From NCBI RefSeq assembly GCF_024462775.1, contig NZ_JANGCE010000001.1, positions 186,001-250,000 of the forward strand: a DNA stretch of 64,000 bases. Reading direction: 5' to 3'. Position numbers and translations under genes: made by a program. Positions 22,564-51,734 of this stretch are shown here, piece after piece. Each line of letters opens with the position of its first letter. Positions within the stretch are counted from its first letter, which is position 1. The notes under the pieces were generated by a model that had not been told where the DNA came from, did no database searches, and saw only the letters and a program-made list of their open reading frames with translations. Origin of the DNA: Butyricicoccus faecihominis (lineage in GTDB: Bacteria > Bacillota > Clostridia > Oscillospirales > Butyricicoccaceae).

Positions 22564-22606
22564 AGCAAAGGAGGGGATGCGGCCCGATACAACTGAATTA
22601 CATGAA

Positions 22607-22765
22607 GCGCCAGAACTGCGGTGCAGCCGGTATCGCAGTTGACGAGGAAAGGGTAAATCGAAGTTTTCGGCGGATGCCCTTCGGCCACGAGTGAGTTGGT
22701 CGTCAGCAGGCTGAGGAAAACGCGCGGGCGACCGCGCGGACAGAGCAGACCTGCGTAACGCACTA
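22607..22765 (+). ncRNA. glmS self-cleaving ribozyme (glucosamine-6-phosphate riboswitch)
   Basis: The conserved glmS core is visible: GCGCCAGAACTG right after the expected cleavage point (A22606 / G22607), P1 formed by AACTGCG and CGCAGTT, then GTTGACGAGG, AATCGAAGTTTTCGGCGGAT and the GCCCTT strand that pairs back. The 3' helix P4 region (GCAGG...ACCTGCG) closes near 22755. Binding of GlcN6P, the product of GlmS, triggers cleavage of the leader and loss of the mRNA, a feedback loop known from Bacillus subtilis. About 70 bases lie between its 3' end and the glmS ATG. The 3' border is approximate, and I saw no clear promoter between the glmM terminator and the cleavage site. Confidence 0.95.
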
Positions 22766-48731: not shown

Positions 48732-48905
48732 TTAGCAGCACTTCTTCTCGAAAGAGAGGCAGTCGGTGCACTGGTCAACGGTGGGGTTGGCCTCGTGCGT
48801 ACCAACGGTGATGCAATCGAGAGCGCAGTACTCGGCACAGTTGCTGTGGTTGGCACACTGATCGACAGTGCAGCGAATGGACTTGTTGCAGTTAGACTTA
48901 TCCAT
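48732..48905 (-). CDS. DUF1540 cysteine-rich small protein
   Basis: The 57-residue protein has ten cysteines and reads MDKSNCNKSIRCTVDQC, then CANHSNCAEYCALDCITVG and DQCTDCLSFEKKCC, which matches DUF1540 (C.V..C.....C....I.VG pattern). Metal binding or a role in spores has been suggested for this type of protein, but it is not known. AAAAAGGAGGTC precedes the ATG at 48905. It runs opposite to its neighbours and has no partner gene. Confidence 0.92.
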   Translation of the reverse strand: MDKSNCNKSIRCTVDQCANHSNCAEYCALDCITVGTHEANPTVDQCTDCLSFEKKCC

Positions 48906-48967
48906 GAGAAAAGACCTCCTTTTTTGATTTCGAGAATAGTGTTGCCGCAGCGCTCCGGATTTATGCA

Positions 48968-48996
48968 TTGACAAAAAAACGGAAACAAGCTATACT
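48968..48996 (+). promoter_or_regulatory. Strong promoter of the TM1266/ABC operon leader
   Basis: TTGACA (48968-48973), a 17-base spacer and TATACT (48991-48996). The expected start site is about 49002-49004, at the ATG of the mini-ORF. Confidence 0.85.
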
Positions 48997-49002
48997 TTTT
49001 CC

Positions 49003-49116
49003 ATGGACAAATCTTTCTCGAAAGCGTATGCTGACGGGCGAGCGATCCAAACTAACCGACATGATCTGCTGTCAAAGATTCATTCTGCGATGAAAGAACG
49101 GAAAATAAGCGTTTGA
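49003..49116 (+). CDS. Possible leaderless 37-residue mini-protein / leader peptide
   Basis: The ORF begins with an ATG at the predicted transcription start and ends with TGA one base before a terminator hairpin. The peptide, MDKSFSKAYADG...MKERKISV, is small, basic and hydrophilic. There is no room for a ribosome binding site. Its third codon positions are less GC-rich than those of neighbouring genes, so it may be a non-coding leader or sRNA (about 145 bases with the terminator). If translated, the ribosome at the stop codon would cover the 5' arm of the hairpin and allow readthrough. Coding status is open. Confidence 0.35.
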   Translation: MDKSFSKAYADGRAIQTNRHDLLSKIHSAMKERKISV

Positions 49117-49117
49117 C

Positions 49118-49148
49118 GTCCTGTATCGCAAGATACAGGACATTTTTT
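49118..49148 (+). terminator. Intrinsic terminator / attenuator ahead of the TM1266 gene
   Basis: GTCCTGTATC (49118-49127) pairs perfectly with GATACAGGAC (49132-49141) around a GCAA tetraloop and is followed by ATTTTTT. It lies between the promoter and the first regular gene of the operon. Confidence 0.93.
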
Positions 49149-49171: not shown

Positions 49172-49414
49172 ATGGAAAACCGCATTGCGATACTGGGTAT
49201 TATCGTAGAAGACAGAGATGCGAGCTATCAGGTGAATGAGCTGCTGCACGCTTATGGCGACCAGATCATCGGCCGCATGGGCGTTCCGCACCACGACCAT
49301 TGCTGCTCCATCATCACCATTGTGATGGATTGCCCGGCCGATACCATCAACGCGCTGTGCGGCAAGCTGGGCCGTTTACAGCATGTGCAGGTCAAGTCAA
49401 TGCTTGCAAAATAA
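49172..49414 (+). CDS. TM1266-type (iron-only hydrogenase system) putative regulator
   Basis: The 80-residue protein is an ACT-like/NikR-C-like domain of the TM1266 group: NRIAILGIIVEDRDASYQVN (start), RMGVPHHDHCCSIITIVMD, INALCGKLGRLQHVQVKS. TM1266 proteins usually sit beside HydEFG hydrogenase maturation genes. None is present here; instead an ABC importer follows directly. The stretch HHDHCC is unusually rich in metal ligands where relatives I recall have YREKG or similar. AGAAGGAGAG precedes the ATG. A metal-sensing role for the downstream transporter is an inference. Confidence 0.85.
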   Translation: MENRIAILGIIVEDRDASYQVNELLHAYGDQIIGRMGVPHHDHCCSIITIVMDCPADTINALCGKLGRLQHVQVKSMLAK

Positions 49415-49424
49415 GGAGAAATTC

Positions 49425-50438
49425 ATGAAAAAACACTGGATACGGCTGCTTTCGGCCGTTATGGCGCTTTCCTTGCTCGCGGGCTGCGGCACAAAGCCGC
49501 AGCAGGAGCGGCCGGAAGCGACGGAAAATGTTGCCCCGGGGTATGAAAACGGGCTGATTACCCGTATATCCGCGCTAAAGGGCCCAACCTCGATGGGGCT
49601 GGTCAAGCTGTTAGCGGACGATGAGGCGGCGGAAGTACAGCGCTATGAGGGTGCCATGTACACCGCGGCAGATGAGATCGTTCCCTTGATCGCCAAAGGG
49701 GAGACCGACATCGCGCTGATCCCGACCAATCTCGCGGCGACGCTTTACCAAAAGACCGAGGGCGGCGTTCAGGTGATCAATGTAAACGCGGGCAATGTGC
49801 TGTACGCGCTCTCCTATGATGAATCATTACAGCACATGGAGGGACTGAAAGGCAAAACCGTTTATATGACCGGTAAGGGGACGACCCCGGAATGGACGGT
49901 GCGTTACCTGATGCAGCTAAACGGCCTGACGGACGCTGATATCACGCTGGAGTTTAAACCGGAATCCGCCGAGGTACTTTCCGCGCTCAGCGCCGATCCC
50001 ACGGCGGCGGCCATTCTGCCGCAGCCGTTCGCGACCGTCGCCATGATGCAGGATCAGGAGCTTTCGATGAACTTTTCCCTCAGCGATGAATGGGCCGCGA
50101 AAAGCGGCGCGGGCGGCACCGTGACCGGCGTTACGATCGTGCGGCGCGCGTTTGCAGAGGAGCACCCCGCGGCCCTCCGGCAGTTTCTGGACGATCACGC
50201 CGCTTCGGTCGCCTATATGACGGAAAACACGGCGGACGGCGCGCGGCTGATCGAGGAATACGGTATTGTGGGAGCGGCTGTGGCTGAGGAAGTGCTGGCT
50301 TATTTCAGTCCTATTTCTTCCGTTTCCGGCGAAGAGATGAAGACTTCGGTAAACGGTTATTTAAGCGCGCTGTACGAGATCGCGCCCGAGGCGGTGGGAG
50401 GAAAAATGCCCGATGAGGCGTTCTACTATCTGGGATAA
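49425..50438 (+). CDS. NitT/TauT-type ABC substrate-binding lipoprotein
   Basis: The 337-residue lipoprotein has a signal peptide ending in the lipobox LSLLAGC, then an ABC binding domain like SsuA/ThiY: LKGPTSMGLVKLLAD, GETDIALIPTNLAATLYQK, LKGKTVYMTGKGTTPEWTVRY (split). The substrate could be a sulfonate, a thiamine precursor or a metal chelate; the sequence does not decide it. ATAAGGAGAAATTC precedes the ATG. The gene overlaps the permease gene by 26 bases, so SBP, permease and ATPase are translated together behind the TM1266 gene. Confidence 0.92.
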   Translation: MKKHWIRLLSAVMALSLLAGCGTKPQQERPEATENVAPGYENGLITRISALKGPTSMGLVKLLADDEAAEVQRYEGAMYTAADEIVPLIAKGETDIALIPTNLAATLYQKTEGGVQVINVNAGNVLYALSYDESLQHMEGLKGKTVYMTGKGTTPEWTVRYLMQLNGLTDADITLEFKPESAEVLSALSADPTAAAILPQPFATVAMMQDQELSMNFSLSDEWAAKSGAGGTVTGVTIVRRAFAEEHPAALRQFLDDHAASVAYMTENTADGARLIEEYGIVGAAVAEEVLAYFSPISSVSGEEMKTSVNGYLSALYEIAPEAVGGKMPDEAFYYLG

Positions 50439-51180
50439 GACGTGGCTGCGCCGCACGATTGCCGCCTTATTCTGGCTCGGCGTGTGGCAGACACTGGCGC
50501 TCATCCTGCCAAAGCTGTTATTTGCAGGCCCTGTACCAACGGTACAGAGCCTGCTTTCTATGCTGTTCACCGCCTCGTTCTGGCTGTCGCTGCTGCACAC
50601 GATCGGCAAGATCGCGCTCGGTTACCTGCTCGCCCTTGGGTTGGGTTGTCTGCTCGCGGCGCTTTGCCATACCGCTTCGGCGCTCCGTCTGCTGCTCGCG
50701 CCCGCCGTACAGATCATGAAAAGCGTGCCGGTCGCCTGTTTTATTGTCGTGGCGCTGATCTGGGTGCGCTCTGCGTGGATATCGGTGATCACAGCCTTTT
50801 TTGTGGTGCTGCCCATTTTCTACATCAATTTGAGCGAAGGGCTGGCAAGCATCGACCCTAAAATGCTGGAGATGGCGCGGGTATTTCGCCTGTCTCCCAC
50901 CGGGCGACTGCGCGCGATCTACCTGCCGGGTGTGATGCCTTATATGCTTTCCGCCACAAGGCTCACGGTCGGCATGGCGCTCAAGGCGGGGATCGCGGGC
51001 GAGATCATCGGTTTGCCGCGTTATACCATCGGCGAGCAGCTCTATTTAAGCAAGCTGTATCTGGATATGAGCGGACTGTTCGCTTGGTCGTGCGCGATCA
51101 TTCTGGTCAGCGTGGGTCTGGAAAAGCTGATGGTGCGTGCGATATCCGCCGCCCAGCGCAGATGGGAGGGCGCCGCATGA
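50413..51180 (+). CDS. NitT/TauT-type ABC permease
   Basis: The 255-residue protein has about six spans and the EAA-like loop RVFRLSPTGRLRAIYLPGVMPYML, with GIAGEIIGLPRYTIGEQLYLSK as the typical end of SsuC/TauC-type permeases. It starts inside the end of the binding-protein gene with GGGAGGAAAAATG as the likely ribosome binding region, and its stop overlaps the ATG of the ATPase gene (ATGA). Together they form a minimal importer. Confidence 0.93.
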   Translation: MRRSTIWDKTWLRRTIAALFWLGVWQTLALILPKLLFAGPVPTVQSLLSMLFTASFWLSLLHTIGKIALGYLLALGLGCLLAALCHTASALRLLLAPAVQIMKSVPVACFIVVALIWVRSAWISVITAFFVVLPIFYINLSEGLASIDPKMLEMARVFRLSPTGRLRAIYLPGVMPYMLSATRLTVGMALKAGIAGEIIGLPRYTIGEQLYLSKLYLDMSGLFAWSCAIILVSVGLEKLMVRAISAAQRRWEGAA

Positions 51181-51734
51181 TTTTGTTGGATAAGGTTTGC
51201 AAGTCGTTTAACGGCAAGCCCGTGCTGCGCGATGTCAGTTTAAGCGTAAAGCCGGGCGAGCTGTGGCGGATCGAAGGTCCTTCCGGCGCGGGCAAGACCA
51301 CGCTGCTGCGCCTGCTGATGGGTCTTGTTGAAGCGGACGCGGGCACGGTCAAAGGTATAAAAGGGCTGCGGTTCGATCCGGTTTTTCAGGAGGATCGGTT
51401 GGTCGAGCATTGGAGCGCGCTGGAAAATGTGCGCCTTGTCGGCGGGCAGACGGGGGAGGCGCTGCTTGACGCGCTTTTGCCAAAAGACGCATTGGCGCAG
51501 CCCGTTCGCACGCTTTCCGGCGGCATGCGCCGCCGCGTGGCGCTGGCGCGCGCGCTCGCGGCAGAGGGGGATATCCTTGTGCTGGATGAACCGTTCGCCG
51601 GGCTGGACGAAGCGAACGCGCAGCGCGCGTTCGAGGTCGTGCTTGACGCGCGTAAGGGCCGCGCGCTGATCCTTGTGTCCCACGGCGCGGGCGCGTCGAC
51701 GCCGGGCATGCAAACACTTCGTCTGCGCATATAA
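51177..51734 (+). CDS. NitT/TauT-type ABC ATP-binding protein (short)
   Basis: Only 185 residues, shorter than the usual 240-260 for the family. It keeps Walker A GPSGAGKTTLLRLL near residues 35-48, the signature LSGGMRRRVALARAL, Walker B DILVLDEPFAGLDEAN and an H-loop LVSHGAG. The Q-loop reads PVFQEDRLVEHWSALENV. The C-terminal regulatory tail is missing, so the frame ends soon after the H-loop. It overlaps the permease stop as ATGA and is the last gene of the operon; no clear terminator follows. Confidence 0.92.
   Translation: MILLDKVCKSFNGKPVLRDVSLSVKPGELWRIEGPSGAGKTTLLRLLMGLVEADAGTVKGIKGLRFDPVFQEDRLVEHWSALENVRLVGGQTGEALLDALLPKDALAQPVRTLSGGMRRRVALARALAAEGDILVLDEPFAGLDEANAQRAFEVVLDARKGRALILVSHGAGASTPGMQTLRLRI

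Follow-up and report, generated by a model that had tools for sequence, protein, structure and literature searches.

Results

The analysed window is a stretch of 64,000 nucleotides from Butyricicoccus faecihominis, and in it an operon for an ABC importer begins with a gene of the TM1266 family (49172–49414, + strand, ATG at 49172), which was identified by TIGR03959 with 102.4 bits (cut-off 60.8) and by PF21699. On the same strand follow the genes for a substrate-binding lipoprotein (49425–50438), weakly NMT1/SsuA-like with the SsuA model below its cut-off, an ABC permease (50413–51180, PF00528) and an ABC ATPase (51177–51734, PF00005), and a class I methyltransferase gene comes after the operon. 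This order of a TM1266-like gene and an ABC importer had been proposed in the original prediction and was confirmed here. TM1266 is a small protein for which TIGR03959 carries the name of a putative regulator; it shows a weak match to the NikR C-domain, has a relative of solved structure (2nzc) and gave no match to a DNA-binding domain in the domain searches.

The operon is preceded by a promoter (48968–48996, + strand) with the −35 box TTGACA (48968–48973), a spacer of 17 nt and the −10 box TATACT (48991–48996), which agrees with the consensus in 11 of 12 bases and ranks first among 11 promoter-like sites within 10 kb, the mean of shuffled sequences being 5.6 sites. Transcription of the leader probably starts near 49003. 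Six bases past the −10 box, at 49003, an ATG opens a frame of 37 codons (49003–49116, + strand) that ends with TGA at 49114–49116, just before an intrinsic terminator (49118–49148, + strand) composed of a perfect 10-bp stem (49118–49141) with a GCAA loop and six T (49143–49148). This terminator has the most pairs among 12 terminator-like sites; with a shuffle mean of 11.9 the number of such sites is at chance level, and the window terminator is exceptional by its length. Strong promoter and terminator enclose about 146 nt. Promoter, ATG, frame and hairpin are all present in the sequence as the original prediction had described them, and its view of an attenuator-like leader was right. Divergent to the leader lies a gene for a Cys-rich small protein of the DUF1540 family (48732–48908, − strand), which is found upstream on the same strand in several members of the genus.

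A comparison of relatives for the frame and the hairpin had been named by the original prediction as its own test, and its outcome was split between the two. We used 14 leaders drawn from 18 loci of the same genus (Agathobaculum); outside this set stayed L005 and L020, which are cut by contig ends, L012 with a poor core match (E 0.18) and no promoter seen, and L016, in which no motif was seen by eye. The −10 box reads TATACT in all 14 leaders, and in the alignment two conserved hairpins precede that of the terminator. RNA core and terminator hairpin are present in 14/14, the T run being poor in L006 and L009. The ATG after the −10 box occurs in the window alone (1/14). The 37-codon frame is also not above chance, with 111 ORFs of at least 30 aa overlapping the 11 kb around the leader, and its product has neither a Pfam match nor a run of one amino acid in the translation.

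In agreement with the earlier statement that no known riboswitch core could be recognised, the families of Rfam 15 gave no match at the motif, neither in the window at the gathering threshold nor, at relaxed thresholds, in the window leader or in 23 loci, and the T-box model gave no match in window or leader. The sole Rfam match above the gathering score in the window is a glmS ribozyme at 22595–22763 (+ strand, 110.8 bits). Two weak matches, one to sul1 inside the SBP gene of L021 and one to RCNMV upstream of the promoter, were judged to be chance.

From sequences upstream of TM1266 orthologues at the genus, family and order level and of 30 further Clostridia loci we derived a core that is repeated in the leaders as 5'-UGA-N4-RAA-(hairpin)-UGA-N4'-RAA-3', where N4 pairs with N4'. 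The core is a rod whose covarying middle helix of 4 bp is flanked by two small conserved internal loops, and the middle helices found include CAUC/GAUG, CGUC/GACG, CGCC/GGCG, CCGC/GCGG, UGCA/UGCA and CACU/AGUG. In Agathobaculum both UGA elements have a C at their third position. In the window the core is hairpin 2 (49061–49102, + strand), which is matched by the covariance model R3 with 36.4 bits (E 5e-07 in the window) and supported by covariation. It consists of a weak P1 (AUC/GAA), a UGC/AAA loop, the middle helix UGUC (49070–49073)/GAUG (49089–49092), an AA/GC loop and P2 (AGA 49076–49078/UCU 49084–49086). Hairpin 1 (49004–49049, + strand), seen in the minimum-energy fold and in the consensus fold of the 14 leaders, is a first tandem copy with a degenerate lower loop, a CUCG/CGGG middle helix and GA/AA beside AGC/GCU.

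The pairing is well supported by covariation. In 24 curated cores 87.9% of the cells are paired compared to 69.4% in shuffles, none of 500 shuffles being as good. For 31 cores the total is 89.3%, which drops to 45.0% or less when the partner is slid by 1–3 columns; the upper seven pairs reach 97.7% with changes on both sides at 7/7, and P1 is weak apart from its C-G pair (69.9% of cells). These values have to be read with the reservation that the cores for the models were chosen and their register was set by eye, which favours the structure. Among 25 matches outside the training set, hand-picked and with an alignment fitted to the model, 82.0% of the cells are paired compared to 62.6%, with 0/1000 shuffles as good. 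Eight diverged 5' copies, picked by eye, covary as well (93.1% paired, 0/500), and thus some leaders including that of the window carry two tandem rods. The leader therefore contains a conserved and covarying core, as is expected of a riboswitch.

With a strict descriptor the motif was detected in 29 of 139 upstream regions, compared to 0–3 in ten shuffle sets and two on the reverse strand; some of the 29 matches seem to have no relation to the motif (e.g. L023 and the distal one in L184). Leaders of the type CUGA...GGG-loop-CCC...AAGG were also observed upstream of TM1266, in L118, L145 and L158 (GGGUUCGUCCC-type hairpin) and in L168, L171 and L189. By eye they look like a divergent form of the motif, are mostly unmatched by R3 and were left out of the counts.

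An order-wide search with model R1, which is without the middle helix, gave 8 matches that looked real and 15 that looked like chance among the 23 matches listed. The 31 training cores of model R3 came from TM1266 leaders (30) and a transporter leader (L053), and the model found 48 places in 291 Clostridia genomes at E ≤ 0.00504. Directly upstream of TM1266, hydE, hydG, hydF or aspA (the aspartate ammonia-lyase gene) are 42 of these 48, including every one of the best 31, and the misses are L228, L230, L234, L235, L236 and L243 (6/48). Eighteen of the 48 places had been used in training, and 24 of the other 30 are upstream of a listed pathway gene; adjacency and training overlap are hand counts from the listed coordinates. 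The commonest first gene downstream of the motif is TM1266. A search of the phylum with R3 (299 genomes) added 14 places at E ≤ 0.005, nine of them at TM1266, hydE, hydG or a linked permease and five being misses (L254, L256, L258, L259, L261); the nine include hydE copies in three genomes that belong to a single genus outside the class. R3 matches 28 of 100 TM1266 loci at E ≤ 0.05, one of them (L094) about 750 nt upstream of TM1266, and many leaders thus are without the motif or have a form that R3 misses.

The genome of the window itself has a second copy of the motif before hydE (E 1.5e-5) and a weak copy (E 0.18) that ends 5 nt before hydG. Remains of a group II intron lie upstream of the hydE copy (L205, 1–311, − strand, contig C54). 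At the reference locus L072, HydE, HydG and HydF all score above their NCBIfam equivalog cut-offs. A permease of the BtuC/FecCD type belongs to the regulated set at L050, L213 and L253/L260. In genome G002 the importer directly follows the motif, and TM1266 is encoded at another place of that genome. In L074 (1–8000, G074) and L081 (G052) motif and TM1266 are followed by a BtuC/FecCD-type permease, HydE (above its cut-off), two proteins that score below their cut-offs (NifH/CfbC-like reductase, NifE/DPOR-like subunit), an unmatched protein of 441 aa and a substrate-binding protein, and this nitrogenase-like cluster apparently belongs to the same regulon. Genome G142 has two motif matches of equal score, on contigs C11 (2688) and C17 (199948); as the latter is about 50 nt from a contig end it may be an assembly duplicate.

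Leaders of the terminator type show complementarity between the 5' terminator arm and the rod's 3' strand plus its flank. In the window, duplex prediction proposes the strand UGCGAUG (49086–49092, + strand) as antiterminator pairing with UAUCGCA (49124–49130). Over 62 non-redundant matches, duplexes with the own terminator average −11.65 kcal/mol compared to −9.21 kcal/mol with the others, and 0/5000 permutations reach the observed total. For 19 of the 62 terminators the own strand ranks among the best five, but for 14 it falls beyond rank 31. From this test we left out misses (L228, L230, L234, L235, L236, L243, L245, L125, L177), duplicates (L226 of L205, L247 of L224), matches longer than 60 nt (e.g. 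L089) and those with no terminator detected; near-identical strands were merged to one, the Agathobaculum TM1266/SBP leaders were set apart, and we retained doubtful matches, among them L049:1430, L031:1211 and some of the 5' copies. A second layout was seen at 12 distinct loci (11 hydG, one hydF): the distance from the end of the rod to the start codon is −3 to 9 nt, and the rod reaches or overlaps the ribosome-binding site.

The 3' strand cannot sit in the rod and in the antiterminator together, so a folded rod should favour termination. Both layouts agree in this respect, which suggests that the folded state is OFF, as in a feedback design. The core thus appears to be coupled to an expression platform, terminator or SD, as is likewise expected of a riboswitch. 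Folding energy by itself fails to show the switch: the minimum-energy fold of the window has hairpin 1 and the terminator and is without the rod of hairpin 2, and the leader has a folding z of −1.46, which becomes +0.95 when it is truncated within the terminator.

Discussion

The conserved structure, the gene association, the complementarity between the motif and its own terminator and the two layouts, all of them results of computation, are best explained if the leader represents a class of cis-regulatory RNA that, in Clostridia and in some members of the phylum beyond them, controls genes for [FeFe]-hydrogenase maturation together with linked importers, and we put the probability of this reading at roughly 60%. 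Transcription from about 49003 would yield the two tandem hairpins. Folding of the hairpin 2 rod, to which a ligand presumably lends stability, would keep the 3' strand from acting as antiterminator, so that the terminator at 49118–49148 would form and the TM1266-ABC operon would stay unread; with no ligand bound, this strand would instead pair with the terminator's 5' arm and allow the operon to be read. Before hydG and hydF, where the rod abuts the ribosome-binding site, folding would block translation.

The regulated set, consisting of the maturases, the ammonia-lyase, TM1266, the NMT1/SsuA-like importer and the BtuC/FecCD-type permease, points to H-cluster synthesis or iron supply, and aspartate ammonia-lyase has been linked to H-cluster synthesis in the consulted part of PMC11736057. 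A signal of H-cluster assembly may thus be sensed directly by the RNA. In its most specific form this would be a new and widespread riboswitch class that responds directly to an intermediate of H-cluster assembly, or to the iron species supplying it, and turns off hydE, hydG, hydF, aspA, TM1266 and dedicated importers by termination or by covering the ribosome-binding site, a proposal that we make tentatively and at less than even odds. If true, the ABC importer of the window would take up a component required to make the H-cluster. The element would unite the [FeFe]-hydrogenase maturation pathway across many genera, would render testable what the cell senses while building the H-cluster and would suggest a role for the TM1266 family. 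It would also put the NMT1/SsuA-like importer, the BtuC/FecCD-type permease and the nitrogenase-like cluster under one signal.

The main rival, which we regard as possible but rather unlikely, is that a trans-acting protein recognises the RNA, the simplest candidate being TM1266 as an RNA-binding feedback regulator. Besides being the commonest first gene downstream, TM1266 encodes a small protein with the name of a putative regulator, the weak NikR C-domain match and the solved relative, and the pseudo-twofold, near-symmetric tandem rods might suit an oligomer. However, three of eight genomes (G330, G504 and G854) carry the motif at hydG/hydE and have no PF21699 match, a weak point as these are drafts with a completeness of 93–97%. 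The same RNA could also work with the opposite sign, ligand binding freeing the operon. The sign is derived solely from complementarity, but such an ON switch is improbable, as antiterminator strand and rod 3' strand overlap and exclude each other and the ribosome-binding-site layout points to OFF as well.

Two other readings concern the leader as a product in its own right. That the terminated leader acts as a trans-acting sRNA would fit the approximately 146 nt bracketed by strong promoter and terminator, but the motif keeps its position upstream of pathway genes (42/48) and runs into the ribosome-binding site in front of hydG and hydF, as expected for cis control, and we give this idea very little weight. 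Even less credible is attenuation by a leaderless 37-codon leader peptide, which the original prediction had considered. Although its ATG sits at the expected transcription start and its TGA directly before the hairpin, the idea fails because this start is confined to the window among the genus leaders; the frame is not conserved, the peptide has no run of one amino acid and conservation tracks the RNA pairing. We therefore rejected it and take the frame to be a chance ORF, so that a translated leader is most likely wrong. Rex sites have been predicted at hydG and at a TM1266-like gene of Clostridium thermocellum (PMC8457756, in part), and redox control at the DNA may act too.

This RNA class apparently has not been described so far. 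No description of the motif was found in the literature searched, and an earlier one may exist under another name (e.g. in a survey of 224 candidates), and the consulted parts of RNA surveys and reviews contain no hydrogenase-maturation motif. Control of [FeFe]-hydrogenase maturation at the RNA level is likewise not described in the consulted parts of PMC11109978, PMC8632094, PMC2864571, PMC9481103, PMC6429828, PMC8457756, PMC3543383, PMC11736057 and PMC7266159, and tandem Wco riboswitches are mentioned to precede hydrogenase genes in the part of PMC9481103 consulted.

With leader-peptide attenuators the window leader has in common the promoter, the short leader, the terminator and the operon, but unlike them it is without a conserved frame. 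Metabolite riboswitches such as Moco/Wco and HMP-PP/thiS act through terminator or ribosome-binding-site platforms. They resemble the motif in having a structured conserved core in the 5' leader, a strict association with one pathway, a terminator or SD layout and a mutually exclusive antiterminator, whereas the motif is a simple rod with no junction and matches none of the Rfam 15 models, including those for Wco, in sequence or structure. ANTAR targets, which are recognised by two hairpins with hexanucleotide loops, are similar in that two consecutive hairpins are present and the second is able to exclude the terminator. In the motif, however, the hairpin loops vary and the internal loops are conserved, and the window loops have 4 nt (hairpin 1) and 5 nt (hairpin 2, model structure). 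In antiterminators of the RAT/LicT type a short rod with internal loops also competes with a terminator. Their rod overlaps with the terminator and keeps it from acting, whereas the rod of the motif would take away the antiterminator.
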